Of a DNA stretch of 64,000 bases, positions 6,897-51,231 are shown piece by piece (position 1 is the first letter of the stretch; each line of letters begins with the position of its first letter). This DNA comes from Pseudomonas sp. S35 (GTDB lineage: Bacteria; Pseudomonadota; Gammaproteobacteria; Pseudomonadales; Pseudomonadaceae): positions 3,286,001 through 3,350,000 of the forward strand of contig NZ_CP019431.1 of assembly GCF_009866765.1 (NCBI RefSeq), given 5' to 3'. The notes beneath the pieces were generated by a model. That model made no database searches and had not been told where the DNA came from. It saw only the letters and a list, made by a program, of their open reading frames with translations. A program made the position numbers and the translations under genes.

Positions 6897-6899
6897 AAA

Positions 6900-8511: not shown

Positions 8512-8533
8512 GATTCAACCCATTATATTAAGC

Positions 8534-8560
8534 AAAAAAAAGGACGCCCGAAGACGTCCA
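8534..8560 (-). terminator. Terminator after the major coat gene, copy B
   Basis: Identical to the copy A element at 170-196: a 7-bp stem with TTCG loop and a run of seven T on the minus strand. Confidence 0.85.
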
Positions 8561-8580
8561 GGTCGAACAGGGATAAAGCC

Positions 8581-8805: not shown

Positions 8806-8814
8806 GGGAAATAC

Positions 8815-9335: not shown

Positions 9336-9344
9336 GTAATGCCC

Positions 9345-9605
9345 TTATCTCAGTGTTGGAAAGCCTGGAACAGTGCCGGGCTTACGGTATGCCCAACTGG
9401 GCGCAATAGCCTCAGGGTTACGCCTGAAGGTTTTGAATTTTCGTGAAGAGCGCTGACGTTCTACTTCTTGCTGAGCCAATGCAGATAGAAACAAGCGCAT
9501 AAGACTATTAATCCCAGCACGTTCATCACATTGAGGGTTGTTGAGAGCATTAAGAAACTCCATTTCTACTGCAAAGCGTAGATTTTGATAAGCAACCCTA
9601 TCCAT
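9345..9605 (-). CDS. Small inovirus protein (86 aa), copy B
   Basis: Identical to the copy A gene at 981-1241. Charged and soluble; role unknown. Confidence 0.6.
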   Translation of the reverse strand: MDRVAYQNLRFAVEMEFLNALNNPQCDERAGINSLMRLFLSALAQQEVERQRSSRKFKTFRRNPEAIAPSWAYRKPGTVPGFPTLR

Positions 9606-9817
9606 CAGAAATTCACCCAGTCGGCAATGCAGAGTGTTCCTTTTTCTTCGTAATCAAAAAACCACCGCTCTTTTAGAGCTTCTACAGCCTTGATCGCTTC
9701 TTCAACCTGCTGAGCAAGAATAGGATTGATAAAAGAGCTGCGCACATGCTGCTGTTCAGCTAGACGACGACGCTGGCCAGCAGTAAGTACGGTGGCATCA
9801 AACTTAACTGTTTTCAT
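9605..9817 (-). CDS. Small inovirus protein (70 aa), copy B
   Basis: Identical to the copy A gene at 1241-1453. It overlaps the replication gene by 4 bases; role unknown. Confidence 0.6.
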   Translation of the reverse strand: MKTVKFDATVLTAGQRRRLAEQQHVRSSFINPILAQQVEEAIKAVEALKERWFFDYEEKGTLCIADWVNF

Positions 9818-18276: not shown

Positions 18277-19308
18277 TTGAAACCCTACCCTATTCATTGT
18301 GTGTCGATCGTTATTCCGGTCTACAACGAACAAGAAAGCCTGCCTGAATTGCTGCGTCGCACGACGGCCGCCTGCAAGCAACTGGCCTACGAATACGAAA
18401 TCATCCTGGTGGATGACGGTAGCCGCGACAACTCCGCCCAATTGCTGGAAGACGCCGCCGCGCAAGACGCCAGCAACGTAGTCGCGGTGATCCTCAACCG
18501 CAACTACGGCCAGCACGCGGCGATCATGGCCGGTTTCGAACAGTGCCGGGGCGACGTGGTGATTACCCTCGACGCTGACCTGCAGAACCCGCCGGAAGAA
18601 ATCCCGCGCCTGGTAGAGCAAGCCGCACTGGGCTACGACGTGGTCGCCACGGTGCGCAACAATCGTCAGGACTCGGCCTTTCGCCGCTGGCCGTCACGGC
18701 TGATCAACCTGGCGGTGCAACGCTCCACCGGCGTGGCCATGAGCGACTACGGCTGCATGCTGCGCGCCTACCGCCGCACCATCGTCGACGCCATGCTCGC
18801 CTGCCGTGAGCGCAGCACCTTTATCCCGATCCTCGCCAACGGGTTTGCCCGCCACACCACGGAAATCCTGGTGCACCACGCCGAGCGTGAACACGGCGAG
18901 TCCAAATACAGCGCCATGCGCCTGATCAGCCTGATGTTCGACCTGCTCACCTGCATGACCACCACGCCTCTGCGCCTGCTGTCCATTGTCGGTTTCAGCC
19001 TGGCGGCACTGGGCATGCTGTTCGCCTTTGCGCTGATTATCCTGCGCCTGGCCTTTGGTGCCGATTGGGCGGGCGACGGCCTGTTCGTGCTGTTCGCGGT
19101 GCTGTTCGTGTTTACCGGCGGCCAGTTCATTGGCATGGGCCTGCTAGGTGAATACCTGGGCCGCATGTACAGCGATGTGCGCGCCCGCCCACGTTTCTTT
19201 ATCGAAAAAGTGCTGCGCAACCAACCGGCAGCACCGGCTCCCGTGGTCGTCGTTGACGGCCTCGTGTCTTCCCATACTTCCACTTCTGCCGATCAGGTCC
19301 AGTCATGA
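18277..19308 (+). CDS. arnC: Undecaprenyl-phosphate Ara4FN transferase
   Basis: This 343-residue GT2 enzyme transfers 4-deoxy-4-formamido-L-arabinose from UDP to undecaprenyl phosphate at the inner face of the membrane. The GT-A domain fills about residues 1-230, with [14 protein letters not shown], the ILVDDGS motif and the [12 protein letters not shown] motif. Two membrane helices follow (about 235-260 and 270-295). The start is a TTG preceded by GAGGT about 10 bases upstream. It leads the operon here; in many species arnB comes first. Its stop overlaps the arnA start (ATGA). Confidence 0.93.
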
Positions 19309-21296
19309 GTTCAAAAGCTGTTGTATTCGCGTACCACGATATTGGTTGTGCAGGCATTGAAGCGCTGCTCAATACCGGTTACGACATTGCGGCTGTGTTT
19401 ACCCATGCCGACGATCCCAAGGAGAACAACTTCTATGGCTCCGTCGCCCAACTCTGCGCCCGCAAGGGCATCCCGGTGCATGCGCCGGAAGACGCCAATC
19501 ACCCGCTGTGGGTCGAGCGCATCGCCAAGCTGAAGCCGGACTACATTTTCTCGTTCTATTACCGCAACCTGTTGAGCGAACCGCTGCTGGCAATCGCCAG
19601 CAAAGGCGCGTTCAACCTGCACGGCTCGCTGCTGCCCAAATACCGTGGCCGCGCCCCAGCCAATTGGGTGCTGGTCAACGGCGAAACCGAAACCGGCGTG
19701 ACCCTGCACCGCATGGTCAAACGTGCCGACGCCGGCGCGATCCTCGCCCAGCAAACAGTCACCATCGACCGCAGCGACACGGGTGTTAGCCTGCACGCCA
19801 AGCTGCGCGATGCCGCCAGTAACCTGTTGCGCGATGCCTTGCCGCAACTGGCCCAGGGCAAGCTGACTGAAACCGCCCAGGACGAAAGCCAGGCTACTTA
19901 TTTCGGTCGCCGCACGGCGGCGGACGGCAAGCTGGACTGGAAACAACCGGCTGAAACGCTGTTCAACCTGGTTCGCGCCGTGACCCAGCCGTATCCAGGC
20001 GCCTTCTGCGCCGTCGGCGAGCACAAGCTGATCGTCTGGCAAGCCGAGGTGGTCAAGGGCAATGAAGGCCTGGAGCCGGGCCGTGTGATCAGCGTCAACC
20101 CGCTGCGCATCGCGTGCGGCGAAGACTCCCTGGTGGTCCAGTTCGGCCAGCGCAACGACAACGGCCTGTACCTGGCCGGTCCGTCCCTGGCGGACGAGCT
20201 CGGCCTGGTGGACGGTTCTGTGCTGCGCGGCGCCGAGTCCGGGCGCAAGCTGCGCCGCACCCGCGTGCTGATCCTGGGTGTGAACGGCTTTATCGGTAAC
20301 CACCTGTCCGAGCGTCTGCTGCGTGATGATCGTTACGAAGTCTACGGCCTGGACATCGGCTCCGACGCCATCGAGCGCCTGCGCAGCCACCCCAATTTCC
20401 ATTATGTGGAAGGCGATATCAGCATCCATACCGAGTGGATCGAGTACCACATCAAGAAGTGCGACGTGGTCCTGCCGCTGGTGGCCATCGCCACGCCGAT
20501 CGAGTACACCCGCAACCCGCTGCGTGTGTTCGAGTTGGACTTCGAAGAGAACCTCAAGCTGGTGCGCTACTGCGTCAAGTACAACAAGCGCGTGATCTTC
20601 CCGTCGACCTCCGAAGTCTATGGCATGTGCCAGGACCAGTACTTCGACGAAGACACCTCCAACCTGGTGGTTGGCCCGGTCAACAAACAGCGCTGGATCT
20701 ACTCGGTCTCCAAGCAACTGCTGGACCGCGTGATCTGGGCCTACGGCGCCAAGGGCCTGAACTTCACCCTGTTCCGCCCGTTCAACTGGATGGGGCCGCG
20801 TCTTGATCGCCTGGATTCTGCGCGTATCGGCAGCTCCCGTGCCATCACCCAACTGATCCTCAACCTGGTCGAAGGCACGCCGATCCGCCTGTTCGACGGC
20901 GGCGAGCAGAAACGCTGCTTCACCGACATCGCCGACGGCATCGAAGCCCTGGCACGCATCATTGATAACGACAACGACGTGTGCAACGGCCAGATCATCA
21001 ACATCGGCAACCCGGAAAACGAAGCCAGCATCCGCCAGTTGGGCGAGGAGCTGCTGCGCCAGTTCGAAGCCCACCCGCTGCGCAGCAACTTTCCGCCGTT
21101 CGCGGGTTTTCGCGACGTCGAGAGCAAGGCGTTCTACGGTACCGGTTACCAGGACGTGGCCCACCGCAAGCCAAGCATCGAAAACGCCAAGCGCCTGCTG
21201 AACTGGGCGCCGACCGTGGAAATGAGCGAAACCATCGGCAACACCCTGGATTTCTTCCTGCGTGAAGCCATGCTCGAAATCGCGGATAAAAAGTAA
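19305..21296 (+). CDS. arnA: Bifunctional UDP-GlcA decarboxylase / UDP-Ara4N formyltransferase
   Basis: This 663-residue protein carries two steps of UDP-L-Ara4FN synthesis. The N-terminal formyltransferase (about 1-300) shows [16 protein letters not shown], with the Asn and His that bind the formyl transition state. The C-terminal SDR-type decarboxylase (about 315-660) shows VNGFIGNHL (dinucleotide loop), FPSTSEVYG (catalytic Ser) and [10 protein letters not shown] (Tyr-x3-Lys). Length matches the fused enteric ArnA. It is coupled to arnC and arnD by overlapping start/stop codons. Confidence 0.95.
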
Positions 21297-22180
21297 TGAA
21301 GGCAGGCTTGCGCATCGACGTCGACACCTACCGTGGCACCCGTGAAGGTGTGCCACGGTTGCTCGAAGCCCTGGATGAAGCGGGGGTCAAGGCGACGTTC
21401 TTCTTCAGTGTCGGCCCGGACAACATGGGGCGCCACTTGTGGCGCCTGATCCGCCCGCAGTTCCTGTGGAAGATGCTGCGCTCCAATGCTGCCGGCCTGT
21501 ACGGCTGGGACATTCTGCTGGCCGGCACCGCCTGGCCGGGCAAGCCGATTGGCCGTGACCTGGGGCACTTGATGCGCCAGGCCAAGGCCGCCGGGCATGA
21601 GGTTGGCCTGCACGCGTGGGATCACCACGGCTGGCAGGCCAACACCGGGCGCTGGAGCGATGCACAGTTGGTCGAGCAGATCAGACTGGGTGTCGACACC
21701 TTGAGCGACATCCTGGGTGAACGTGTCGACTGCTCAGCCGCTGCCGGTTGGCGTGCCGATGAACGTGTGGTGCAAGCCAAGCAAGGTTTCAACTTGCGCT
21801 ACAACAGCGATTGCCGGGGTACCAGCCTGTTTCGGCCGACATTGGCCGATGGCAGCGCCGGTACGCCACAAATTCCGGTGGACCTGCCGACCTTCGACGA
21901 AGTCGTCGGGCCGGCGGTGGCTGCCAAAGACTTCAACCGCTTCATTCTTGAGCGCTTTGCCGAGACGAAGCTCAACGTCTATACGATCCACGCAGAAGTA
22001 GAAGGGATTCTGATGGCCAATGACTTCCGCCAATTGCTCGCCCAGGCTGGGCAGCGTGGCATCGACTTCACCCCATTGGGCGACCTGCTGCCCGTCGACC
22101 TCACCACCTTGCCACAGCAACACTTGGTACGCGGCGCATTGAGTGGCCGGGAAGGCTGGCTCGGGGTGCAGCAAGCATGA
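21296..22180 (+). CDS. arnD: Undecaprenyl-P-Ara4FN deformylase
   Basis: This 294-residue polysaccharide deacetylase family enzyme removes the formyl group so that the lipid-linked sugar can be moved on. It opens with [15 protein letters not shown] (metal-site Asp residues) and has [14 protein letters not shown] near 98-111 with the metal-binding histidines. No signal peptide is evident; ArnD is thought to act at the membrane interface. The start overlaps the arnA stop (TAATG), and its stop overlaps arnT. Confidence 0.93.
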
Positions 22181-23832
22181 TCCGTCGTTGGGCGCTGCCC
22201 CTGCTGCTGTTGGCGTTCGGTGCGTTTTACCTGCTGCCGCTGGCCACCCACGGTCTGTGGATTCCCGATGAAACCCGCTATGCGCAGATCAGCCAGGAAA
22301 TGCTGCTGACCGGCAAGTGGGCATCGCCGCACTTCATGGGCATCCGCTACTTCGAGAAACCCGCGGCCGGTTACTGGATGATCGCGCTGGGGCAGGCGCT
22401 CTTCGGGCAGAACCTGTTTGGCGTGCGTTTCGCTTCGGCCCTGAGTACCGGGTTGAGCATCCTGCTGGTGTACCTGATGTCGCGCCGGTTGTGGAATGAC
22501 CCGCATAAGAGCCTGGTCAGCACCGTGCTGTACATGAGTTTTGTCAGTGTTGCGGCGCTGGGCGGGTATGCCAACCTCGATCCGCAGTTCACCTTTTGGG
22601 TGAACCTGACCGGCGTGGCGTTGTGGTTTTGCTTTGACAGCACTACTCGTAACGGTCGCCTGGGGGCCTGGGCGCTGCTTGGCTTTGCCTGTGGGATGGG
22701 CTTTATGACCAAGGGTTTTCTGGCGTGGCTGTTGCCGGTGTTGATCGCTCTGCCCTATGCGATCTGGCAGAAACGCTTTGGCGAGCTGCTCAAGTTTGGC
22801 GTGGTTGCCGTGGTCGTGGCGATTGTCGTCAGCCTGCCTTGGGCGCTGGCCGTGCACCTGCAAGAGCCGGACTACTGGCACTTCTTCTTCTGGCATGAGC
22901 ACATCCAGCGCTTTGCCGGTGAGGATGCCCAGCATGCCGAGCCGTTCTGGTATTACCTGCCGCTGCTAGTGGCGTTCTCACTGCCGTGGGTGGCGTTGCT
23001 GCCGTCGACACTCAAGCAAGCCTGGCAGGACAAGCGCAGCGCAAAAATCGGCTTTGTGTTGCTGTGGCTGCTGATGCCCCTGGCGTTTTTCAGCCTGGCC
23101 AAAGGCAAGTTGCCCTCCTACATCATGCCGTGCCTGCTGCCCCTGGCCCTGTTGATGGGCTCGACCCTGGCCGACAAACTGGCCGCCGGCCGTGGCCATG
23201 CGCTGCGCATCAATGGATGGCTGAACCTGCTGGTCGGCGTTGCCGCCTTGCTGGCGCTGACTTGGTTTCAATTAAAGAAACCGGTGTATGAGCATGGGCA
23301 GGAAACCCTCAGCCTGGTCGTGGTGTTCACCTTCCTGTTCGGTTGGATCATCGTCAACCTGCTGCAAGCCGCACGGCCGATGCAACTGTGGGCCGCGCCA
23401 GCGCTTGGCAGTTGGCTGATGGTCGCCCTGCTGCCAGCCGCACTGCCCCACTCGGTGGTGTACAACAAGACCCCGGACTCATTCATCGTCGACCACCTGC
23501 CGGAACTGCAACCGGCCACTGCCTTGCTCAGCAATGACCTCGGCGCAGCGTCGGCCTTGTCGTGGCGCCTGCAACGCCCGGATGTGACGCTTTACAACAC
23601 CGTGGGTGAAGTGAAATACGGCCTCGCCTACCCGGATGCCCGTCATCACAAGGTGGATACCACCCAAGTCCAGCAGTGGATGAGCGACGCCCGCAAAAAA
23701 GGTGCCGTCGGTGTGGTGATGCGCGTTAAAGGTGACGACGAAATTGCCGAAGTTTCTCTGCTGCCCAATGACGGTCGGCGCTATGAGCAAGGCAATATCG
23801 TGATTCTTATTTTCCCGCAGGTGGCACCGTGA
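22177..23832 (+). CDS. arnT: Lipid A L-Ara4N transferase
   Basis: This 551-residue inner membrane GT39 (GT-C fold) enzyme moves L-Ara4N from undecaprenyl phosphate to lipid A phosphates on the periplasmic side, lowering polymyxin binding. It has about 12 membrane helices. The first periplasmic loop carries [18 protein letters not shown] with the catalytic-type Asp/Glu, and [15 protein letters not shown] follows. Length agrees with known ArnT. The start overlaps arnD (ATGA), and the stop overlaps arnE (GTGA). Confidence 0.95.
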
Positions 23833-24176
23833 TCACCCTGCTGCTGTTATTGGCCGCCTGCCTGTTGACCTGCATGGGCCAGGTCTCGCAGAAGTTTGCT
23901 GTGGAAAGCTGGCGCGACCAGCCCGACGGCTGGGCGCTGAAACTGCGCTCACCGTGGTTGTGGGTCGCGTTGATCTGCCTCGGGCTGGGCCTGCTGGTCT
24001 GGCTGCTGGTGTTACAACGCCTGGAGGTGGGCATCGCTTACCCGATGCTTAGCTTGAACTTCGTATTGGTCACGCTGGTGGCGCGCTTTGTCTTCCATGA
24101 GGCGATTGACCGCCGCCACTGGGTGGGCGTGTTGCTGGTGATCGCCGGTGTCGTGCTGTTGGGGCGCCAGGTATGA
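23829..24176 (+). CDS. arnE: L-Ara4N flippase subunit ArnE
   Basis: This 115-residue small-multidrug-resistance-like protein has four membrane helices. With ArnF it is proposed to flip undecaprenyl-P-Ara4N to the periplasmic face. [17 protein letters not shown] (about 61-77) and the [17 protein letters not shown] end are typical. The GTG start overlaps the arnT stop. Confidence 0.9.
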
Positions 24177-24574
24177 GCCGGGTTCAAGGCTTTGCCCTGG
24201 CCCTGGGCAGTGTCGGTCTGGTGAGTGCCGCCCAGTTGGGCATGCGCTGGAGCATGACGCGTTTGCCGCTGCCCCACGAATGGCTCACGGCTCAGATCGA
24301 TCTCGGCGCCCTGGGCGTGGTGATCCTGGCGATCTTCGCTTATGCGCTGTCGATGCTCTGCTGGCTCGGTGCGCTCAAGCACCTGCCCCTGGGTCGCGCC
24401 TATTCATTGCTGAGCATCAGCTATGCGCTGGTGTACCTGCTGGCAGCCAGCCTGCCGGTGTTCAACGAACATTTTTCCGTTTCAAAAACCCTGGGGGTGG
24501 CGCTTGTCATCCTCGGTGTGCTGATCATCAACTCTCGTCGTGCCAGTGCTACTCGTCCCAGGAATGCCCCATGA
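24173..24574 (+). CDS. arnF: L-Ara4N flippase subunit ArnF
   Basis: This 133-residue four-helix membrane protein is the partner of Arn[20 protein letters not shown] (about 78-96) mirrors the ArnE pattern. It overlaps arnE and ugd by 4 bases on each side, so the pair is translated in step. Confidence 0.9.
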
Positions 24575-25950
24575 AAATCAGTGTATTTGGTAGTGGTTAC
24601 GTCGGCCTGGTACAGGCCACCGTATTAGCCGAAGTCGGTCATGATGTGATCTGCATGGACGTCGATCAGAACAAGGTCAGGCTGTTGCAGCAAGGCCACG
24701 TGAGCATCTTCGAGCCGGGGCTGGCGGCAATGGTCAAGGAGAACCTTGAGAGTGGGCGCCTGCATTTCACCTTTGATGAAAAGCTCGCCGTGGAGCACGG
24801 TGAAGTGTTGTTTATCGCCGTAGGCACGCCTTCGGATGAAGACGGCTCGGCGGATTTGAAATACGTGCTGTCGGTGGGCGATGCCGTGGCCCGTCATCGA
24901 GTCGCCCCGGTGATCCTGGTGGAAAAGTCCACCGTGCCCGTGGGCACTGGCGATACCCTACGAGCCCATATCGAAAAGGCCCTGCGCGTGGCTGGGCGGC
25001 ATCTTGAGTTCGATATCGTCTCGAACCCGGAATTCCTCAAGGAAGGCTCGGCCGTTGCCGACTGCCGCCGCCCGGACCGCATCATCATCGGCTGCGAGCG
25101 TGAGGAAGTGCGGGAGGTCATGCGCGACCTGTACGCGCCGTTCAACCGCAACCATGACCGCATCATTTTCATGGACTTGCGCAGCGCCGAGCTGACCAAA
25201 TACGCGGCCAACTGCATGCTGGCCACCAAGATCAGCTTTATCAATCAGATTGCCGAACTGGCCGAACACTTGGGCGCCGACATCGAATCGGTGCGCCTGG
25301 GCATCGGAGCCGACTCGCGCATCGGCTATCACTTTATCTATCCTGGTTGCGGCTACGGTGGCTCATGCTTCCCCAAGGACATGCGGGCGTTGATCCATAG
25401 TGCCAAGCAGGCCAACTGTTCCAGCGACCTGTTGGAAGCCGTGGAAGCGATTAACCAACGGCAGAAGAGCAAGTTGTTTGAGCGCATCAATGCGTTTTTC
25501 AAAGGCAACCTGCGTGGCAAAACCTTCGCCCTGTGGGGCCTGGCCTTCAAACCCAATACTGACGACATGCGCGACGCCCCCAGCCGTGTGCTGATGGAAG
25601 CCCTTTGGGCGGCAGGCGCCAATGTGCGTGCGTTCGACCCGGAAGCCATGCAGGAAACCCAACGCCTCTACGGCGACGAAGCACGCTTGATGCTGATGGG
25701 CACGCCAGAGTCCACGTTGGCCGGGGCTGACGCGTTGATCGTCTGCACCGAATGGCAACAGTTCAAGGCGCCGGACTTCGACCTGATCCACCAACGCCTC
25801 AAAACCCCGGTGATCTTCGATGGGCGCAACCTGTACGACGGCGAACGCCTGTCGCGCAAAGGTTTCCAGTATTTCCCGATTGGGCGTGGCGACTCCTGCC
25901 AGTTGCCGATTCCCCAACAGCAGTGGGTGCCGCAGGTCGTGGAAGCCTGA
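24571..25950 (+). CDS. ugd: UDP-glucose 6-dehydrogenase
   Basis: This 459-residue enzyme oxidises UDP-glucose to UDP-glucuronate, the substrate of ArnA. It has an N-terminal Rossmann motif ([15 protein letters not shown], residues 7-21), [12 protein letters not shown] at about 117, and the catalytic cysteine motif [16 protein letters not shown] near 260-275. A C-terminal UDP-binding domain follows. The true start is the ATG that overlaps the arnF stop; the reading frame stays open much further upstream but only inside arnF. It supplies the pathway from within the same operon. Confidence 0.95.
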
Positions 25951-28004: not shown

Positions 28005-28187
28005 TCGATTCGACTTGTTTGGATCGAAAACCTTTAAGTGCATTATTTTTGCATTTAAACCGCATTAATATGCATTGGCGCAGCACTTCCAGGCACGGCA
28101 CACTGCGCAGTGTTCCTCCCCCAAATGCAGGAACTTTCAAAGGGCTTTTCCGGGCAACCAGACAAGCCTTTTTTTTGCCCGCCGTTT

Positions 28188-28913
28188 ATGGACTTTCTTT
28201 CAATGCTCGCTCGCTGGTTCCCTGCTGCTATCAACACCCGTCCTTCTGAATGGAGCCGCGCCGCCATTGGCATGGCCCTGGGGACTATGTTCAGTGTCTG
28301 GCTGTGTGCCCAGGTCTTCGGCATGGAGGTGGCGCTGCACCTGCTTGGCCCGCTGGGGGCCTCTGCCGTGCTGTTGTTCGCCGTGTCCTCCGGTGCGCTG
28401 GCGCAACCCTGGTCGATCATCGGCAGCTACTTGTGCGCCGGTGTGGTTGCGTTACTGGTTGCTCGGGTGCTCGGACGCACCTTGGGCGGCGCCTGCCTCG
28501 CGGCGGGCATGGCGGTGGTATTGATGTGCTGGCTGCGTTGCCTGCACCCGCCGGCAGGTGGCTTGGCCATGACGCTGGTATTGGCTGATCCTGCCTCCGC
28601 AGCCCTTGGCTGGTATGAATTGGGCGCAGTGCTGTTGGGTGCGAGTGCCCTGCTCGCCTGCGCGCTGGCGTATAACAATGTCACGCGCACGCGCTATCCC
28701 AAGGGCGCTGTTGAATCACCGGCGGCAATCCTGGTCGCCCCCAACGCCCACAGTACTCCCGCCATCATCGCCGCTGATTTGAAGCTGGCACTGGCCGAAA
28801 TGGAACAGTTCTACGACGTCGAGCCCACGGCGCTTGAGCAGTTAATCCACGCTGCAGAAACCCACGCCCGGCGGCGCAGCATCGGCGAAGTGCTGGCCCG
28901 TCGGGTGGGGTGA
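28188..28913 (+). CDS. HPP family integral membrane protein
   Basis: About 241 residues from the ATG at 28188 (MDFLSMLARWFP). Longer starts exist, but upstream residues are unlike the family. It has four to five membrane helices, with LLGPLGASAVLLFAVSSGALAQPW near 55-78 and the conserved HPPAGGLA near residues 125-132 that names the family. A soluble C-terminal tail of about 60 residues carries helical Glu-rich segments. HPP proteins of cyanobacteria are linked to nitrite transport, but the role in pseudomonads is not settled. Confidence 0.85.
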   Translation: MDFLSMLARWFPAAINTRPSEWSRAAIGMALGTMFSVWLCAQVFGMEVALHLLGPLGASAVLLFAVSSGALAQPWSIIGSYLCAGVVALLVARVLGRTLGGACLAAGMAVVLMCWLRCLHPPAGGLAMTLVLADPASAALGWYELGAVLLGASALLACALAYNNVTRTRYPKGAVESPAAILVAPNAHSTPAIIAADLKLALAEMEQFYDVEPTALEQLIHAAETHARRRSIGEVLARRVG

Positions 28914-29174
28914 CACACGCGACGGAAGGCCCATCTCGCAGCTTGCAATGGGGCCTGCGCGGACTAGAGTAAATACACCACTTGAAGTTGTCTGCTGTTC
29001 ACCGTGACGTCTGGATACACGTTTTTCCAGTAGCGAAGACAAAGGAATGTCTGGCTATGGATCCATATCCATCAAGCGTCGTCGTGTATCGGTCATTGCC
29101 GTCACCCCCTCACGCTGCCTGCGCTCCTACTCGAGTGTTTCGACAGTAAATGTTGGAAGCGAGAGGGCCCGGCC

Positions 29175-30794
29175 ATGGACGCTACTTTTAAAGCGCTGTT
29201 CAGTTCCACCCTGTTTGAGCCACGACAACGACATCGTCTCAGCCTTCGGGCTTACATGGACCTAACTATCAAGCGCATGCATGCGATTTTTGATAGCGGT
29301 GCCATCAATAATGACTTGTGGTTGGGGCAACCACGTCAACGGGAGTTCGCCAATCTCTGCGAAATAATGGGCTGGCTGGGCGCATTCGATTACGCCCTGC
29401 ACTCCTCTATCGTCGACCATATGATCGCCGTCGATGCCCTGTTCAACCACGCCAGCCCTCGCCAACTGACGCGTTATCGTGATGAAGCCCTGCGCCTGCG
29501 CAAGGTCTACGCCTTCGGCTGCACGGAAGCGGCCATGGGTACCGACGTGCGCCATTTGCAAACCCAAGTGACATACGATCATCAACGACAGCGACTAATC
29601 CTCCACTCCCCCTCCCCTCAAGCCTGCAAATGCTGGATAGGCAACGCCTTGCACGCGGCCCAGGTGGTGATGGTGATTGCGCGCCTGATCGTTGGCGGCA
29701 AGGACGAGGGGCTTCACTGGTTTCGCGTGAAGATTCGCCAACGAGAAAACGGCCGCCTCAAAGACGGTGTTCGAGTAATGGCTTGCGATCCCAAGGGCGG
29801 TATTCATGCCAATCAAGTCGCGGCAATCCGCTTCGAGCATATGGAACTTCCGGTCGATGCGCTGATGCAACGACACGCGCACTTTACCCCGGAAGGAAGC
29901 TTTGTCAGCGACCTGCCGTTGGATGAACGCTTCATTGATTCGTTGAAGACCTTCCTTCAAGAGCGGCTGTTGTTCATGGCCGGCATTCGCCACAACGCGG
30001 GCCTCGCTGCGCACCTGGGGTATCGGTTTGCCCAGCACCGCCTGATCCAAGGGCCAGATGGCCGTATGCCGCTCCTCAGTCAACCGCTGTTTCGTCAGCG
30101 CCTCTACGCCATACAGCTCAAGGCCTTGGCGCTCAAATACTTGGAGCAAGCAATACGCAAGCGCTTCGAGGCGAATTGGGCGCAACTCGCCCGACGCAAG
30201 GAGTTGCACGTATTGGCCGCACTGGACAAGTCAGTCGGTGCCTGGCTGGGGCTCGACGTGATAGCCCTGTCCCGCGAGCTGTGCGGTTCCCAGGGCTTTC
30301 ACCATTACAACCAGATCGTCACGCAGCGTATGGACTGCGAAGTCGCCAATACGTTCGCCGGTGACAGCTCGGTGATGGCGTACCAAATCATCAAGAAGGC
30401 GTTGGAGCGCCCACGATTTGTCGACAACCCGCCCACCAATATCGGCCAGTGTGTGGAAGCAAAGATCGTCGCGCAATGTACCGAGGCCGGTGGGTATACC
30501 CATCAACAGGCCTTGGGCATGGCCTACGCCAGGGCACTTGACCTGATCGTTCAGGAAGTCGAAAGCCATCAACTGCCGGATCGGGAAATATGTGTCGACC
30601 TGATTCAAGTGTTCCGCCCACTGTTGCATACCTGGCTGGACGCCAGTGCCGACACCCTCAGCCAGCACGCCACCCCGGAGCGGATTGTGAGCCTGGCCGG
30701 CCTGCTCAGGCCTCCGCAGGCCCTGGTCAGCGCGCCGATCGATAAGCCTGATTACATCAGTCAATTCACGCGTCCATTGTATGAGGAGCAATGA
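29175..30794 (+). CDS. Acyl-CoA oxidase-like flavoprotein
   Basis: This 539-residue protein has the layout of eukaryotic-type acyl-CoA oxidases rather than ordinary acyl-CoA dehydrogenases. FGCTEAAMGTDVRHLQTQVTYD (about 115-136 in part) corresponds to the ACOX flavin/substrate strand, ARLIVGGKDEGLHWFRVKI follows near 174-192, and two C-terminal helical domains end the chain. Such enzymes introduce a 2,3 double bond and give H2O2, or act on acyl groups tethered elsewhere. AGAGGG lies about 7 bases before the ATG. It starts a three-gene unit with the P450-RidA fusion, whose ribosome site lies within its last codons. Substrate unknown. Confidence 0.75.
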   Translation: MDATFKALFSSTLFEPRQRHRLSLRAYMDLTIKRMHAIFDSGAINNDLWLGQPRQREFANLCEIMGWLGAFDYALHSSIVDHMIAVDALFNHASPRQLTRYRDEALRLRKVYAFGCTEAAMGTDVRHLQTQVTYDHQRQRLILHSPSPQACKCWIGNALHAAQVVMVIARLIVGGKDEGLHWFRVKIRQRENGRLKDGVRVMACDPKGGIHANQVAAIRFEHMELPVDALMQRHAHFTPEGSFVSDLPLDERFIDSLKTFLQERLLFMAGIRHNAGLAAHLGYRFAQHRLIQGPDGRMPLLSQPLFRQRLYAIQLKALALKYLEQAIRKRFEANWAQLARRKELHVLAALDKSVGAWLGLDVIALSRELCGSQGFHHYNQIVTQRMDCEVANTFAGDSSVMAYQIIKKALERPRFVDNPPTNIGQCVEAKIVAQCTEAGGYTHQQALGMAYARALDLIVQEVESHQLPDREICVDLIQVFRPLLHTWLDASADTLSQHATPERIVSLAGLLRPPQALVSAPIDKPDYISQFTRPLYEEQ

Positions 30795-30795
30795 A

Positions 30796-32412
30796 ATGGC
30801 CCTTCAGAGAAAACCTGATTTCTCAGATCCGAAAGTCATCAGCGATCCCTACCCGGCCTTCGCTTGGCTGCGCACGCACGACCCAGTGCATTGGTGCAAA
30901 CACCACAAGGCTTGGATGCTCACCCTTTTTGAGGACGTTAACGCCGCGCAGGCAGATGCAGGGCGTTACTCATCCAATCGAATGCGCCAACTGGTGGACG
31001 CGCAATTACCCCTGCAAAAACGTGCCGTGTTGGAACCCTTTGTCGAGAAGGCAAAGCGCTGGATGTACGCGCAGGATGGCAAGGAGCATGAGGCTGGACG
31101 CAGAGTGTTGGGTAAAACATTCAGCCCGGCCTCTATCGACGCGCTTGAAGGTGCGATTCAACAGATTGTCGACGACCAACTGAAGCAGTTGAGCCCTCGT
31201 CCGGAAATGATGGCTGAGCTGTTCAACAAGATTCCGGCGCTGATTCTCGCGCATTTGTTCGGTATACCAACCGAAGACGCGTTGAAAATCAGGAACTGGA
31301 CCGACGCAATTATCGTGTGCATGGTGGGCAGCACCGACCCCGCTTATGGCCCCAATGAGGCGCTACAGGCTATCGAAGAGATGTACGCCTATTTTTCGCG
31401 GCTCATTGGTCAACGCCGACGTGCGCCCGAACACGACCTGGTCAGTCAAGTGATCGCTGCTGGCGACAAAGCGGGTATGAGTGAGGAAGACGGCCTGGCT
31501 CAACTGGCATTCATCCTGGTTGCCGCCACCACCACCAGTGCCGATCAATTGGGAATCATCTTGTTCTACCTGCTGGACAAGCCCAAGCGATGGGCGCAAG
31601 TCAGGAACGACCCCGGTACGCTAAACGACGTTATAGAAGAAATACTGCGCATTTGCCCGGCGGGTCAACTCAGTCACAGGGTACTGACTGAGGATGTAGT
31701 TTTGCGCGGTAAAACGCTGCACAAAGGCGAGTTGGTGTTTCTGATGCGGGCGGCCGCCAATCGCGATCCGGTGCACTTTTCCCGCCCCGATCAGTTCAAT
31801 TTGAAGCGCCAGAAGCAAGACCACTTGGCTTTTGGGCGCGGTCCGCATTTCTGCATGGGCCGGCTGCTTTTCAAATTGGAGGCCCATATTTTGTTTACTG
31901 CCCTGCTGCAGCGTTTTCCGCACATGCGCCTCATTAAAGGGCAGCCGCCGCGCTGGCGCGACAACAGCCTGCAGTTTCGCGGTCTAAGTCGGATCCCGGT
32001 GGATTTGGCTCTGACCGATGATGTTATTACCCGTTGTTTTTCCGCGGCGCCTTGGGAAAAGAAAGGCGGCTACTGTCGCGCATTGCGCGCCGGCAACCTC
32101 ATCATGACCAGTGGCACCGTCGCGTTCGATGAGCGAGGCGAGCCTTTTGCCCACGACGATGTCTATGGTCAGACTTGGCGATGCCTGGAGATTATCGAGA
32201 CCGCGCTCAAGCAACTGGGCACCGATCGTACACGCGTGATCGCCACGCGCATGTACACCACCGACATGGCGCTGTGGCAGGAAATCCTCAAGGCCCATAA
32301 GGCGTTTTTTAACGGTTGTGAACCGACGACGATGTTGCTGTGTGTAAAGGCGCTGATCGCACCTGTATATCTGATTGAAATCGAAGCCCAGGCCATGGCT
32401 GGCAACCCATGA
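30796..32412 (+). CDS. Cytochrome P450 fused to a RidA/YjgF-like domain
   Basis: I chose the ATG at 30796 (GAGGAG 7 bases upstream). Of 538 residues, about 1-405 are a P450: I-helix AATTTS (243-248), E282-x-x-R285, and heme motif FGRGPHFCMG with C353. About 411-535 are a RidA-like domain (GNLIMTSGTVAFDERG near 433-448, LIEIEAQAM near 526-534). The reading frame is continuous. RidA deaminases have an Arg near the position of T512, and here it is absent, so plain imine deaminase activity is doubtful. I infer that a P450 product is handled by the attached domain. It is coupled to the next gene by ATGA. Confidence 0.88.
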   Translation: MALQRKPDFSDPKVISDPYPAFAWLRTHDPVHWCKHHKAWMLTLFEDVNAAQADAGRYSSNRMRQLVDAQLPLQKRAVLEPFVEKAKRWMYAQDGKEHEAGRRVLGKTFSPASIDALEGAIQQIVDDQLKQLSPRPEMMAELFNKIPALILAHLFGIPTEDALKIRNWTDAIIVCMVGSTDPAYGPNEALQAIEEMYAYFSRLIGQRRRAPEHDLVSQVIAAGDKAGMSEEDGLAQLAFILVAATTTSADQLGIILFYLLDKPKRWAQVRNDPGTLNDVIEEILRICPAGQLSHRVLTEDVVLRGKTLHKGELVFLMRAAANRDPVHFSRPDQFNLKRQKQDHLAFGRGPHFCMGRLLFKLEAHILFTALLQRFPHMRLIKGQPPRWRDNSLQFRGLSRIPVDLALTDDVITRCFSAAPWEKKGGYCRALRAGNLIMTSGTVAFDERGEPFAHDDVYGQTWRCLEIIETALKQLGTDRTRVIATRMYTTDMALWQEILKAHKAFFNGCEPTTMLLCVKALIAPVYLIEIEAQAMAGNP

Positions 32413-33260
32413 ACGTGGCCAGTGAACGTCAGGCGGTACGCGATGCAGTGGTCATGCATGTAAGCGACATCACGCTCACCACCAAGGGCGGGCCAGTGCC
32501 GGTCAGGCTGTATCGGCCGGCGCACCCGGGTCCCGCGCAGGTCCTGATGTTTTTCCACGGGGGCGGCTGGGTCGCAGGCGACCTGGACACCCATGACAGT
32601 TTCTGCCGAGTCATGTGTGAGTGGGCCGGCTGCGCAGTGGTGGCAGTGCACTACGCCCGGCCGCCGGAGCATCGTTTTCCCAGGGCGGTGGAAGACTGTT
32701 ACGCCGCTACCGAATGGATAGCACACCAAGGTCCCGACCTGGGATTGACGCCCTCGCGCATGGCAGTCGCAGGCGGCGGTTCGGGGGGAGGCTTGGCTGC
32801 CGTAATTTGCCAGATTGCCAGGGATCTGGAAGGACCCGACATAGCTTTTCAGTTGCTGCTGTATCCGGTACTTGACTGCCTGGCGCGCAATCGGTCCCGA
32901 GGGCAATTCGCCGAGGGATTTGGCTTGACCAGCAAAAAGTTGGATGAGTATCTGAACCACTACGTGCCCCGAGGTATTGCGTTGGATCACCCTTGGTTGT
33001 CGCCCGCGCGAACTGCATGCTTTAACGGGTTGCCCGCCGCTCTGATCGTTACCGCCGGCTGTGACCTGCTGCGCGATGAAGGGCGTGCTTATGCTCGCCG
33101 CCTGAAAAAAGCCGGTGTGCCGGTGCGTCACAAGGAATATCCAGGCATGCGCCACGGTTTTATCAACTACCCCTCTGCGGATCTGCAGGCCAGACGCGCC
33201 ATCCTGCTTTGCGTCGAAGCGTTGGCGGGCCATTTCAGGAGAACTCGCACCTCTGCATAA
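32409..33260 (+). CDS. HSL-family alpha/beta hydrolase with altered nucleophile motif
   Basis: This 283-residue protein has the HSL/GDXG family oxyanion motif HGGGW (50-54), a GCDLLRDEG segment with the likely catalytic Asp, and GMRHGFI with the likely His near the C-terminus. The nucleophile elbow, normally VAGDSAGGNLAA, reads VAGGGSGGGLAA (120-131). In an ungapped alignment Gly124 replaces the Ser and Ser125 is one place late. It still fits GXSXG loosely (GGSGG), so it could be active with a shifted loop, or be a non-hydrolytic relative. Its start overlaps the P450-RidA stop, so the two are translated together. Confidence 0.85.
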   Translation: MNVASERQAVRDAVVMHVSDITLTTKGGPVPVRLYRPAHPGPAQVLMFFHGGGWVAGDLDTHDSFCRVMCEWAGCAVVAVHYARPPEHRFPRAVEDCYAATEWIAHQGPDLGLTPSRMAVAGGGSGGGLAAVICQIARDLEGPDIAFQLLLYPVLDCLARNRSRGQFAEGFGLTSKKLDEYLNHYVPRGIALDHPWLSPARTACFNGLPAALIVTAGCDLLRDEGRAYARRLKKAGVPVRHKEYPGMRHGFINYPSADLQARRAILLCVEALAGHFRRTRTSA

Positions 33261-33295
33261 ATGCAAAAACGACCTGCATGATTGACGGTTGTACT

Positions 33296-33309
33296 GTGCA
33301 AATTTGCAC
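33296..33309. promoter_or_regulatory. Perfect 14-base palindrome upstream of the BCAA operon
   Basis: GTGCAAATTTGCAC lies 69 bases before the 3-hydroxyisobutyryl-CoA hydrolase start, with extra partial symmetry (TAC...GTA) outside. It is a good candidate operator for a dimeric regulator. I cannot name the regulator. Confidence 0.45.
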
Positions 33310-33377
33310 TGGTACGATCACGAGAGCGTTCGCCCACGAACCTCTTGATAAAGAACAATAAAAGCAGGGAGTTAGAG

Positions 33378-34481
33378 ATGACTGCTCAGGTTTCATCCGA
33401 AGCAAGCCGTGCCGATACACCTCAGGAAGAGGTGCTGGCCGACGTCCGCAACCATATCGGCCACCTCACCCTCAACCGCCCCGCCGGTCTGAACGCCATT
33501 ACCCTGGACATGGTGCGCCGCCTGACCCGGCAACTGCAGGCCTGGTCAGACGACCCATCGGTCTACGCCGTGGTCCTGCGCGGTGCTGGCGACAAGGCCT
33601 TTTGTGCTGGCGGCGATATCCGCTCTCTCTACGACAGCTTCAAGAACGGCGACACCCTCCACGAAGACTTCTTCGTCGAGGAGTACGCCCTAGACCTCGC
33701 CATCCACCACTACCGTAAACCCGTACTGGCGCTGATGGATGGGTTTGTCCTGGGCGGCGGCATGGGCCTCGTACAAGGTGCGGATCTACGCGTTGTCACT
33801 GAGCGCAGCCGCCTGGGTATGCCGGAAGTAGCTATCGGTTACTTCCCAGACGTGGGCGGCAGCTACTTCCTGTCACGCATTCCCGGCGAACTGGGGATTT
33901 ACCTCGGCGTCACCGGGGTGCAGATCCGCGCAGCCGATGCACTGTATTGTGGGTTGGCAGACTGGTACCTCGACAGCGCCAGGCTGGCCGAGCTGGACCA
34001 GAAGCTCGACCACCTGCACTGGCACGACTCCCCCCTCAAGGACTTGCAAGGCATGCTGGCGAAGCTGGCGGTGCAGCAACTGCCCGATGCGCCGCTGGCG
34101 ATCTTGCGCCCGGCGATCGACCACTTCTTTGCATTGCCGGATGCCCCTAGCATCGTCGAGCAATTGCAGGCCGTCACGGTCGCTGATAGCCATGAATGGG
34201 CACTCAACACGGCCCAACTGATGCAGACCCGCTCCCCCCTGGCTATGGCTGTCACCCTGCAAATGCTGCGCAAGGGCCGCCGTCTTTCACTGGAGCAGTG
34301 TTTTGCCCTGGAACTGCACCTGGACCGCCAGTGGTTCAAGCGCGGCGACCTGATCGAAGGCGTACGTGCCCTGATCATCGACAAAGACAAGACCCCACGC
34401 TGGAACCCGCCCACCCTGCATGGGTTGGCGGCTGCCCATGTCGAGAGCTTCTTCCAACAGTTCGAGCAGATTGCGAGATAA
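33378..34481 (+). CDS. 3-hydroxyisobutyryl-CoA hydrolase
   Basis: This 367-residue crotonase-fold enzyme removes CoA from 3-hydroxyisobutyryl-CoA in valine breakdown. The start MTAQVSSEAS has a GGGAG-type site upstream; an in-frame start 32 codons earlier would run through the palindrome. LNRPAGLNAITLDMV (about 35-49), FCAGGDIRSLYDS near 77-89, the oxyanion-hole segment GFVLGGGMGLVQGADLRV near 122-139 and the added C-terminal domain (to 367) separate hydrolases from short enoyl-CoA hydratases (about 260 residues). It pairs with the following dehydrogenase. Confidence 0.88.
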   Translation: MTAQVSSEASRADTPQEEVLADVRNHIGHLTLNRPAGLNAITLDMVRRLTRQLQAWSDDPSVYAVVLRGAGDKAFCAGGDIRSLYDSFKNGDTLHEDFFVEEYALDLAIHHYRKPVLALMDGFVLGGGMGLVQGADLRVVTERSRLGMPEVAIGYFPDVGGSYFLSRIPGELGIYLGVTGVQIRAADALYCGLADWYLDSARLAELDQKLDHLHWHDSPLKDLQGMLAKLAVQQLPDAPLAILRPAIDHFFALPDAPSIVEQLQAVTVADSHEWALNTAQLMQTRSPLAMAVTLQMLRKGRRLSLEQCFALELHLDRQWFKRGDLIEGVRALIIDKDKTPRWNPPTLHGLAAAHVESFFQQFEQIAR

Positions 34482-47402: not shown

Positions 47403-50400
47403 TTAAATGCGTTCCATCTTCGGTAGCCACACGCGAATCAGCGAGAACAGACGGTCCAGGTCAATCGGCTTGGCCAGGTAATCGTTGGAGCCCGCCGCAA
47501 GGCAACGCTCCTGATCGTCCTTCATCGCCTTGGCCGTTACCGCGATAATCGGCAGTTTCTTCCAACGCGGGTCCTGGCGGATCAAGGCAGTTGCTTCGTA
47601 GCCGTCCATCTCCGGCATCATCACGTCCATCAGCACCAGGTCGATGTCTTCGACTTCATTGAGTTTGTCGATGGCTTCGCGGCCATTACGCCCGATGACC
47701 ACCACGGCGCCTTTGTGCTCCAGGGCGCTGGTCAGGGCGAAGATGTTACGCACATCATCATCCACCAGCAGGATTTTGCGCCCCTCGAAGACCTTGTCGC
47801 GGCTGCGGGCGGTCTTGAGCATCTTCTGGCGTTCATGGGACAGCTGGGATTCGATTTTGTGCAGAAAGAGTGTGACCTCATCCAGCAGGCGTTCCGGTGA
47901 ACGCGCGCCCTTGATGATGATAGAGCGCGAATATTTGCGCAGTTCGGCCTCTTCATCGCGTGTCAGGTTGCGCCCGGTGTAGACGATCACGGGCGGGAAC
48001 GAGCAGATGTCTTCGGTGGCCATGCGCTTGAGCAGCTCGTTGCCGAGCATGTCCGGGAGCTTGAGGTCGATGATCATGCAGTCGTAGACGTTGCTACGCA
48101 GCAGGTCGAGCGCTTCCTGGGCAAAGCCGACGGCGGTGATCTCGATATCGTCGTCGCCGATCAGGCGGGCGATGCTATCGCGTTGCAGGTCGTCGTCTTC
48201 GACCAGCAGTACGCGCTTGACCTTCTGGGTCAGCTTGGCTTCCAGGCGCGCAAACACGTCCTTGAGCTCTTCGCGGGTGGTGGGTTTGACCGCATACCCG
48301 ATGGCGCCCATGTGCATGGCGGCTTCGACACGGTCTTCCACGGAAATCACATGCACGGGGATATGGCGCGTGTTGGCGTGCTCCTTGAGGCGCTGCAGCA
48401 CGGTCAAGCCGGAATGGTCCGGCAAGCGCATGTCCAGCAGGATCGCGTCGGGAATGTATTCCTCGGCCAGGTTGTAGCCTTCATCGGCACCATGGGCCAC
48501 CAGGCAGTGGTAACCCAGTTCGTGGGCCAGGTCGAACAGGATGCGCGCAAAGTTGGGCTCGTCTTCCACCACCAGGATGCAACGGGTGGTGAATGGCGCC
48601 TTGTCACGGTCATCGGCAAAGCGTGGGATCAGGTTCGCATCAGCCATCGGCAACGGCGAGACCTTGACTGGCGTCGGTGCTGGCGCCGCCACGGCGTGGC
48701 GTGGTTGTTCGATGGGCGGCGCGTCTGCCTCGCGTTCTATGTACTGCTGCGGCAACACCAGGGTAAACACACTGCCCTTGCCCGGTTCACTGGTCACGCT
48801 GATATAGCCACCGAGCAAGGTGGCCAGGTCGCGGGAAATCGACAGGCCCAGCCCCGTACCGCCATAACGGCGGTTGGTGGTGCCGTCGGCCTGGCGGAAG
48901 GCTTCGAAGATGCTTTCCTGCTGGTCCGGGGCGATGCCGATACCAGAATCGCGCACGGTGAAGGCAATGCCCTCCCCCGGCGCGCGGGATACGGACAAGC
49001 TGACGTCGCCCTGCTCAGTGAACTTGACCGCGTTGGACAGCAGGTTTTTCAGGATCTGCTCCAGGCGCTGGCGATCGGTGAACAGCATGAGCGGAGCGCC
49101 GGGCTGCACTTCCACCTGGAACCCCAGCTTGCGATCAGCCGCCAGCGGCTCGAACATGCCACGCAGCCCGTCCACCAGCCGCGCCACACTGGAGTTTTCC
49201 GGGCGAACTTCCAGCTTGCCGGCTTCCACCTTGGAAATGTCCAGAATATCGTTGATCAGGTTGAGCAGATCATTGCCGGCCGAGTAGATCGATTCGGCGA
49301 ACTTGACCTGTTCGGCGCTGAGGTTTTCCTGGGGATTCTCGGCCAGCAACTTGGCCAGGATCAGCGAACTGTTGAGCGGTGTGCGCAGTTCATGGGACAT
49401 GTTGGCGAGGAATTCGGATTTGTACTTGCTGGAGCGCTGCAATTCGTCGGCGCGCTCTTCCAGCTCACGCTGGGCCTGGTTGAGCTCGATGTTCTTGTGG
49501 TCCATGGCGTCGCGCTGCTCGGCCAGCGTCTGGGTTTGCTCGGCCAGTTGCTCGTTGGTCTGTTCCAGCTCGGCCTGTTGGGTTTCCAGGTGGGCCTGGG
49601 ACTCCTTGAGGATGCGTGACTGCTCTTCCAGCTCCTCGTTGGCCGTCTTGAGTTCTTCTTGCTGCACTTGCAGCTCTTCGTTGAGCTGCTGGGTTTCGGC
49701 CAGCACTTCCTGCAGACGCTGGCGATAACGCGCGGCCTCAATGGAGGTGCCAATGTTACCGGCGATCAGTTCCAGCAATTCGACATCGCGCTCATCCAGT
49801 GTGCGCAAGAAGCCCAGCTCGATCACTCCATTGACGCGGTCGTCATCGCTGGTCGGCATCACCAGCACGCTGCGGGTGGTGCCTTCGCCGAGGCCAGAGC
49901 TGACTTTGAAGTAGTCCACCGGCACATCGTCCAGGCGAATCAGGCGATCAAGCTGTGCCGCCTGGCCGACGATGCCTTCATCGGCGTAGATCGACTGTTC
50001 CAACTGCTCCTGATCGCGGGAGAAACCATACGTGGCCACCCGCTTGAGGCCTCCGTGTTCCTCACGAACATACAGCGCCGCCACCGCCGACCCCATGTAT
50101 TGGGCGAAAAACTGCAGGATATTGCGCCCCAGCATGTTCAAGGTCAGTTGGCCCAGCACTTGCTCCGCCAGTTCGGTTTGCCCGTTGCGCAGCCAAGCCT
50201 GCTGTTCCAGGCGAAGTGCGATCTTCTGTTGTGAGGCGAGGGTCTTGGCGTAATTGCCTGATAGCGCAATTAGATTCTTCCTGCCGATATACGCCAGAAA
50301 GCCACTCAAGCCGAGTACGAACGCCAGGTAAAGGGTGACACTGATCACCGTAGTACGCGTGACTTCCTCGTTGCGGGTAAGACGGAACTGCTGCTCCATC

Positions 50401-50900
50401 GCCACGGCTTCGTCGTACTCCTTACGAATCTCATCGGTCAGGCGTTTGCCACGGCCGGCCTTGACCGCACTGCGGTAATCACCACTCTGGCGCTGCATAT
50501 CAATCATCGACTGAGCGTATGTGTTCCACTCGGCCTGCATGGCCTCCAACCTCTTCAGCCGGTCGACCTGTTGCGGGTTGTCCGCCACCAGCTCCTGCAA
50601 ATTACGCAGATCGGCAATGATCCGCGGCTTGGCCACCTCGTACGGGTCGAGGAAATGCTCGTCACCGGTGATCAGAAAGCCGCGCATGCCGGTTTCCAGG
50701 TCCACCGTCAGCTTGGACGACTCGTTGAGGTTGTTGATGACCCGGTCGGTGTGCTCCACCCACTTGATCACCGTCAGCAAATAGGTAATCAGGCAGACGA
50801 AAAACACTGCGCTGAGAACACCCACCCCGAGAGGCAGGGCCACATTTCGGCTCAGGAGGTTACGAAAGCTTTTTTCATCGACTGACGACGCGGGAGTCAT
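47403..50900 (-). CDS. CHASE3-GAF hybrid histidine kinase with three receivers
   Basis: The product is about 1165 residues from the ATG at 50900 (AAGG about 7 bases upstream); starts up to 50945 are possible. It has a membrane helix (about 22-42), a CHASE3 sensor (about 45-190; METGMRGFLITGDEHFL motif), helix 2 and a GAF domain (about 240-400). A long Glu/Gln-rich coiled coil follows (about 400-500), then HisKA (FLANMSHELRTPLNSS), HATPase (DSGIGIAPDQ, GTGLGLSIS) and three receivers with acceptor Asp in LLDMRLPDHSG, IIDLKLPDMLG and LMDVMMPEMDGYE. It leads an operon with cheR, cheB and two more phosphorelay genes. Confidence 0.92.
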   Translation of the reverse strand: MTPASSVDEKSFRNLLSRNVALPLGVGVLSAVFFVCLITYLLTVIKWVEHTDRVINNLNESSKLTVDLETGMRGFLITGDEHFLDPYEVAKPRIIADLRNLQELVADNPQQVDRLKRLEAMQAEWNTYAQSMIDMQRQSGDYRSAVKAGRGKRLTDEIRKEYDEAVAMEQQFRLTRNEEVTRTTVISVTLYLAFVLGLSGFLAYIGRKNLIALSGNYAKTLASQQKIALRLEQQAWLRNGQTELAEQVLGQLTLNMLGRNILQFFAQYMGSAVAALYVREEHGGLKRVATYGFSRDQEQLEQSIYADEGIVGQAAQLDRLIRLDDVPVDYFKVSSGLGEGTTRSVLVMPTSDDDRVNGVIELGFLRTLDERDVELLELIAGNIGTSIEAARYRQRLQEVLAETQQLNEELQVQQEELKTANEELEEQSRILKESQAHLETQQAELEQTNEQLAEQTQTLAEQRDAMDHKNIELNQAQRELEERADELQRSSKYKSEFLANMSHELRTPLNSSLILAKLLAENPQENLSAEQVKFAESIYSAGNDLLNLINDILDISKVEAGKLEVRPENSSVARLVDGLRGMFEPLAADRKLGFQVEVQPGAPLMLFTDRQRLEQILKNLLSNAVKFTEQGDVSLSVSRAPGEGIAFTVRDSGIGIAPDQQESIFEAFRQADGTTNRRYGGTGLGLSISRDLATLLGGYISVTSEPGKGSVFTLVLPQQYIEREADAPPIEQPRHAVAAPAPTPVKVSPLPMADANLIPRFADDRDKAPFTTRCILVVEDEPNFARILFDLAHELGYHCLVAHGADEGYNLAEEYIPDAILLDMRLPDHSGLTVLQRLKEHANTRHIPVHVISVEDRVEAAMHMGAIGYAVKPTTREELKDVFARLEAKLTQKVKRVLLVEDDDLQRDSIARLIGDDDIEITAVGFAQEALDLLRSNVYDCMIIDLKLPDMLGNELLKRMATEDICSFPPVIVYTGRNLTRDEEAELRKYSRSIIIKGARSPERLLDEVTLFLHKIESQLSHERQKMLKTARSRDKVFEGRKILLVDDDVRNIFALTSALEHKGAVVVIGRNGREAIDKLNEVEDIDLVLMDVMMPEMDGYEATALIRQDPRWKKLPIIAVTAKAMKDDQERCLAAGSNDYLAKPIDLDRLFSLIRVWLPKMERI

Positions 50901-51231
50901 GGGCATGCCTTGGCCAAGTGCGGAAAAACGGGAAGTTTGCCCCAAAGTCGCGGTAAAGGGCTACGTTTCTGATCATCTACGCCGATCCGCAACGGTTTAA
51001 ACCGCGGCTTGACCAAGACTCTGCGATCCAAGAATCAAACAGGTAACGCAAATGAAGGGCGTGCTGACGGGGCGTTTGACATGCTTTCTCCGCGGATGCG
51101 CAACGGGACATTTTCCTACATTCGCGTCACAATGCCTGCGCCAACGGAACTTGCCGAGATTGACGCGACTCATTAGAGAATGGTCTTTCAACCGCTAAAG
51201 ACCTGCCTTCCATTTCTCGGGAATTTTGATT
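50901..51231. promoter_or_regulatory. Divergent region between the hybrid kinase and a receiver gene
   Basis: These 331 bases hold no credible gene; short open frames lack ribosome sites. They should contain both promoters. I see no clear sigma-70 or sigma-54 consensus or long inverted repeat. Confidence 0.4.

Follow-up and report, generated by a model that had tools for sequence, protein, structure and literature searches.

A rare, co-inherited gene trio in Pseudomonas encoding an ACOX-type flavoenzyme, a P450-Rid fusion and an HSL-type hydrolase

The closest described pairing of an acyl-CoA oxidase with a cytochrome P450 is that of Aco and Cyp17 in Streptomyces; in excerpts of three reports, both the acyl-CoA oxidase gene (aco) and the P450 gene (cyp17) are required for the production of avenolide (PMC5744401, PMC5575351, PMC7670052). 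Here, we have analyzed a 64,000-nt window of Pseudomonas sp. S35 (NZ_CP019431.1; host genome of 6.61 Mb), to which all coordinates below refer. Three open reading frames (ORFs) on the plus strand (29175-33260) encode an acyl-CoA oxidase (ACOX)-type flavoenzyme, a P450 fused to a Rid domain and an HSL-type hydrolase. As in the Aco/Cyp17 system, an ACOX-type enzyme and a P450 share one small locus, and the P450 adjoined the ACOX-type gene in all 17 Pseudomonas loci that we collected. On the other hand, the Pseudomonas cassette contains additional Rid and HSL steps and resides in a Gram-negative host. By analogy, it may work like the Aco/Cyp17 system, although we do not class it as a member. The initial annotation of this region knew of no standard pathway with such a gene set. 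This agrees with the open literature searched, in which no paper on the set was found, whereas the Aco/Cyp17 combination provides a partial precedent.

Gene organization, co-occurrence and leader element

The first gene (29175..30794) codes for the ACOX-type flavoenzyme of 539 aa, whose domain scores were 43.2 bits for ACOX_C_alpha1 and 34.7 bits for Acyl-CoA_dh_M. The second (30796..32412) combines a P450 domain (30796..32010; p450, 87.8 bits) and a Rid domain (32026..32409; Ribonuc_L-PSP, 71.1 bits) within a single frame, and the third (32409..33260) specifies a LipP1-like alpha/beta hydrolase of 283 aa (Abhydrolase_3, 233.4 bits). The longest ORF of the second gene begins at 30781 (543 aa); judged from alignment, the protein most likely starts instead at ATG 30796, which is favoured because most aligned relatives begin there. 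This ATG lies one base past the ACOX stop codon (30792-30794) and is preceded, 7 nt upstream, by a GAGGAG (30783-30788) that still belongs to the 3' end of the ACOX gene. An ATGA overlap (32409-32412) joins the P450-Rid gene to the hydrolase gene. The trio is translationally coupled, and both features on which the initial annotation had based this proposal, namely the ribosome site in the upstream gene and the ATGA overlap, were found at these positions.

To characterize the distribution of the trio, 398 Pseudomonas genomes were scanned with cut-offs of E ≤ 1e-60 for ACOX and P450 and E ≤ 1e-75 for the hydrolase, the last value being chosen after seeing that orthologues had at least 57% identity and other family members at most 48%. 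Each of the three genes was identified in nine genomes, and these were the identical nine for all three (G000, G016, G074, G083, G122, G263, G303, G337 and G352); none of the three could be detected in the other 389 genomes at the thresholds used. Co-occurrence in other genomes had been set beforehand as a check, and its outcome did not refute the proposal. The 17 Pseudomonas loci comprised the window, 13 loci from a contig scan of genomes and three added later. It should be noted that L021 and L022 are nearly identical, leaving about 16 independent loci, and that G016, G074, G083, G122 and G303 coincide with loci already named, so that each was counted once. The order ACOX-P450-Rid-hydrolase, all on the same strand, was observed in 17 of 17 loci. 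The closest ACOX relatives were those of P. trivialis and P. cedrina (81% identity each).

Two trio-free relatives were chosen from 38 as those with the closest orthologues of the glycosyltransferase upstream of the trio. In blastn comparisons both were colinear with the window to about 28907 and resumed at 33253; the breaks fell at 28907/33253 in L089 (G017) and within about 10 bases of them in L090 (G004). The whole insert (28908..33252, plus strand), consisting of the leader described below and the three genes, is thus missing from the colinear site in both relatives. The three genes are a rare unit that was gained or lost together. Their third-position GC content (GC3) was 0.65-0.69, compared with 0.72-0.77 in four neighbours, which is a mild sign of a different origin. 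The insert itself holds no gene-sized integrase or insertion sequence, no search having been made beyond it. In addition, the hydrolase stop codon sits in TGCATAAATGCA (33253-33280), which was also found at both empty sites, and because of this the end of the hydrolase gene seems to use recipient sequence.

A conserved element of about 70 bp, TTGTCTGC..GTCTGG..CCAGTAGCGAWGACA..GTCTGGC, occupies 28988..29056 on the plus strand. With up to 5 edits permitted, its core was recovered ahead of the ACOX gene in all 17 loci, at a distance of about 41 to 258 bases between the beginning of the core and the ACOX start. An alignment of 11 of these loci contained 39 invariant columns. The exact core pattern occurred as a single copy upstream of ACOX in the nine carrier genomes and in none of the other 389. 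Since the pattern was derived from these loci, its recovery from the nine was to some extent to be expected, and the informative part is its single copy and its absence elsewhere; an exact pattern would also miss looser copies, as it does for L017 and L018 of the 17 loci. Small indels within the core disfavour a coding frame. We regard the element as a candidate operator or 5' leader RNA; no Rfam match (E ≤ 1) was obtained in 28800-29300, and a predicted hairpin showed no covarying pairs. A search for a shared regulon revealed no second exact copy of the first half of the leader in the host genome and none of the core in the 398 genomes. A sigma-70 scan of 28880-33420 yielded one site, against 1.5 expected, and none within the leader.

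Active sites and fusions of the encoded enzymes

The flavoenzyme had originally been described as a eukaryotic-type acyl-CoA oxidase, a description that holds for its fold and not for its active site. The ACOX fold, including the C-terminal half, is present: 514 residues align with 5y9d in Foldseek, Foldseek alignments to peroxisomal acyl-CoA oxidases (ACOX1) gave 15-19% identity, and the full-length best matches were acyl-CoA oxidases. The cassette enzyme is similar to ACOX1 in fold over most of its length but shorter (539 versus about 660 aa), and the catalytic Glu of the TFEGEN loop (Glu421 in rat ACO-II) is replaced by Ala in 16 of 16 aligned rows and also in L028 and L034 (A395 in the window). 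Instead, an invariant Glu was found at helix G, where E263 of the window aligns with L037 (YER) and L041 (QER). In the structure model, E263 is carried by a helix (249-288), and A395 lies between helices. Such a layout, with a Glu in helix G and a residue other than Glu in the J-K loop, corresponds to the type of isovaleryl-CoA dehydrogenase (IVD) and long-chain acyl-CoA dehydrogenase (LCAD), and a catalytic role of the helix-G Glu is predicted from alignment and model. The position of the catalytic Glu (QER/YER) and the Ala at the usual site are shared with IVD and LCAD, whereas the ACOX-type C-terminal half is not, and identity to the LCAD-like protein of the host genome was only 22%. In the consulted portion of one study, the helix-G position is reported for only two known acyl-CoA dehydrogenases (PMC10925408). 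Thus, the enzyme has an ACOX fold without the ACOX active site, and canonical ACOX chemistry cannot be assumed.

The heme-ligating Cys (FGxGxHxC) and the ExxR motif of the P450 were present in 17 of 17 loci. At the position of the I-helix acid, Thr was found in 15 loci, including the window, and Asn in the other two, so that the usual acid-alcohol pair was absent. The Rid domain (PTTM in the window) also departs from RidA proteins. When the Arg position for imine hydrolysis was located by aligning the Rid protein of L021 to solved Rid proteins, Thr occupied it in 16 of 17 sequences and Leu in the remaining one (L061). According to passages of an earlier study, RidA proteins bind the carboxylate of the substrate through a conserved Arg (Arg105 in TdcF), Ser is found at this position in about 10% of them, and Rid subfamilies without the Arg appear not to hydrolyse imines, their functions being unknown (PMC4433059). 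Among solved structures, 3i7t gave the best match to the stand-alone Rid protein of L021 (53.6 bits). Both the cassette domain and Rid4-Rid7-type (3i7t-like) proteins have the Rid fold without this Arg, whereas the former is fused to or adjoins a P450 and has Thr or Leu at the Arg position. The previously proposed fusion of a P450 with a RidA-like domain is therefore real as a single frame, although the Arg of the RidA imine deaminases is missing; for the same reason, the suggested amino-acyl chemistry is not implied. The hydrolase retained the HGGGW oxyanion motif and the Ser/Asp/His triad in all 17 loci, with the nucleophile elbow GGSGG (GGSGA in L017). Its NCBIfam LipP1 score of 308.5 bits was under the curated cut-off of 350. 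Compared with LipP1-type HSL esterases, the oxyanion motif and the triad are common to both, but GGSGG takes the place of GDSAG at the nucleophile.

The P450 and Rid domains formed one protein in 9 of the 17 loci and were encoded by separate genes in 8. ACOX and P450 formed one protein in a single locus (L062), and ACOX-P450 fusions were found in seven full-length clusters of a large protein database (P0028, P0029, P0050-P0052, P0055 and P0056), among which P0052 matches L062. In the ACOX tree the Pseudomonas members formed a clade (99/99). A single change (100/98) accounted for the P450-Rid fusion; at least two, either both gains or one gain followed or preceded by a loss, were needed for the ACOX-P450 fusion, with 11 rows of unclear fusion state left uncounted. 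Because they fuse in different combinations, the gene products probably act together. A further cluster, P0058, represents a 545-aa protein in which a MaoC-type dehydratase domain, another acyl-thioester-type domain, is joined to a P450 of this kind, 37% identical to that of the window.

Related loci and flanking genes

The same ACOX clade was identified in Lentzea, Saccharopolyspora, one Nocardia and Streptomyces aureocirculatus, for which genes were called by GC3. The ACOX-type gene was followed by a member of a single Abhydrolase_1 family in 7 of 7 actinobacterial loci, and by a Zn-dependent ADH in 6 of 7. Within 10 kb in L029 we found a salicylate-synthase gene (354 bits; cut-off 325), a large LuxR-type regulator, a P450 and PKS-domain genes, and these neighbours were shared by L032 and partly by L027 in sequence clustering. 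Members of the clade also occurred in Providencia, Yersinia and Pectobacterium (protein only). An FA_desaturase-family protein followed in two of three enterobacterial loci; in the third, L036 (Yersinia alsatica), the contig ends at this place, and its ACOX frame, which is in two pieces, was kept as found and excluded from the tree. A survey of 119 enterobacterial genomes gave two carriers, both already among the known loci, and the enterobacterial context thus rests on few loci. The recurring association of an ACOX-type enzyme with a hydrolase and/or an oxygenase is more in keeping with small tailoring modules than with core fatty-acid breakdown.

A search for plasmid-borne copies of the ACOX clade matched 14 records, all with at most 29% identity and none covering more than 80% of the query. 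Three Streptomyces plasmid genes were considered as Aco candidates: L073, near a TetR gene; L075, next to a P450; and L074 on a linear plasmid of Streptomyces sp. NBC_00998, where three ScbR-family receptors accompany an ACOX-type gene and a P450 in an avenolide-type layout. The candidates were 28-29% identical to the window ACOX, formed a separate clade (100/100), and kept the standard Glu (EGDN) without a Glu at the helix-G position; the P450s beside them were 26% identical to that of the window. Orthology with the avenolide Aco was rejected on these grounds for the three plasmid candidates, the comparison being with them and not with SAV_3706 itself. No ScbR/AvaR-type receptor was found in the insert, which is directly bordered by the core genes HPP and ECH_2.

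On the left, a TM_HPP membrane protein gene (28110..28913, plus strand) adjoined the trio in 17 of 17 loci; it was rejected as a cassette gene, being part of the core genome and still there at both empty sites. On the right, a 3-hydroxyisobutyryl-CoA hydrolase-type gene (ECH_2; 33282..34481, plus strand) and the ACAD genes were likewise rejected as pathway parts, since they are core genes kept at both empty sites and are not downstream in L023 and L024. Farther away, a run of genes on the plus strand (18277-25950) encodes a glycosyltransferase, a formyltransferase-epimerase, a polysaccharide deacetylase, a PMT protein and a UDP-glucose dehydrogenase, and resembles the lipid A aminoarabinose (arn) operon. 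The minus-strand region 1450-10944 has a GC content of 45-50%, compared with about 60% elsewhere, and contains filamentous-phage-type genes. Among these are a secretin gene, a Zot-type gene and two genes for G2P replication proteins, each of 376 aa and with the same Pfam score; the region looks like tandem inovirus prophages. The minus strand at 47403-50945 encodes a hybrid histidine kinase of 1180 aa, in which CHASE3 and GAF domains are combined with three receiver domains.

Possible function of the cassette

We favour, at about an even chance, a self-contained cassette of four activities that converts a bulky or branched acyl thioester into a small specialised metabolite. The ACOX-type flavoenzyme, with its predicted fold, would desaturate the thioester at C2-C3 using Glu263 of helix G as the base. 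The P450 might then oxidise the same molecule at another carbon by direct hand-over, a physical coupling suggested by the gene fusions. The Rid domain lacking the Arg could act on the oxidised intermediate, perhaps by cyclising it, tautomerising it or adding water to it instead of hydrolysing an imine. Finally, the hydrolase, whose triad residues are present, would free the product from its thioester or open an ester or lactone, and the conserved leader may provide dedicated control of expression. Several observations weigh against this biosynthetic scheme. With the usual I-helix acid missing from the P450 in all loci, ordinary hydroxylation is not assured, although some active P450s do without it. 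The insert contains no gene for a carrier protein, CoA ligase, transporter, ferredoxin or regulator, and substrate supply, electron supply and control must therefore come from elsewhere. The adjacent enzymes differ in Actinobacteria and Enterobacterales, where the chemistry may not be conserved, and a rare, patchy cassette suits a catabolic accessory function nearly as well.

Catabolism comes second, as a possible but clearly less probable explanation: the enzymes would help to degrade a branched, terpenoid or plant-derived acid or ester, in that the hydrolase would open the ester, the P450 would oxidise, the ACOX-type enzyme would desaturate the CoA thioester, and housekeeping beta-oxidation would finish the process. 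Bulky esters and branched acyl-CoAs would be fitting substrates for an HSL-type hydrolase and an LCAD/IVD-type active site, the distribution (9 of 398 genomes) is patchy, and valine-type acyl-CoA genes lie on the right flank. However, these flanking genes remain where the cassette is absent, the insert lacks an uptake gene as well as the ligase and regulator, and the ACOX-P450 fusions suggest a direct hand-over between desaturation and oxidation that a feeder of beta-oxidation would not need.

A new type of synthase for a diffusible signal or antimicrobial in Gram-negative bacteria, in which the desaturase-P450-Rid assembly would give a butenolide-like or otherwise cyclised acyl product, the Rid domain closing the ring or isomerising and the leader sensing the product or a precursor, appears unlikely. 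We consider it just as doubtful, if not slightly more so, that the cassette is a Gram-negative synthase of an avenolide-like butenolide signal, with the ACOX-type enzyme making the 2,3-double bond, the P450 adding oxygen to yield a 4-alkylbutenolide and the hydrolase tuning this product. The dependence of avenolide on aco and cyp17 and the grouping of ScbR-type receptors with an ACOX-type gene and a P450 in L074 speak for such a synthase, whereas the low identities of both enzymes to the Streptomyces candidates, the different Glu position, the separate clade and the lack of a receptor-type gene in the insert argue against it. There is a still smaller chance that the flavoenzyme is not an acyl-CoA desaturase and instead acts on a carrier-bound or aminoacyl substrate or performs flavin oxygen chemistry, with P450 and Rid finishing a nitrogen-containing product; its best full-length matches, the absence of carrier protein and adenylation genes from the insert and the Rid domain without the imine-hydrolysis Arg all disagree with this. 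That the genes are chance neighbours or a normal chromosomal segment, for which nothing of weight speaks beyond the commonness of the three superfamilies, is refuted by their presence in the same nine genomes, the order in 17 of 17 loci, the gene fusions and the empty sites.

The synthesis of a specialised acyl-derived metabolite is thus the reading that we prefer. The cassette is an unusual, dedicated combination of ordinary superfamilies with two informative active-site departures. Our data define a clade of ACOX-type enzymes with a helix-G Glu that spans Pseudomonas, Enterobacterales and Actinobacteria. They also tie a Rid domain without the Arg to a constant set of reaction partners, a P450 and a desaturase-type enzyme, which makes its function directly testable. 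An as yet undescribed natural product of Pseudomonas is a probable outcome of this pathway, and the three-gene unit is compact and easy to delete or express.
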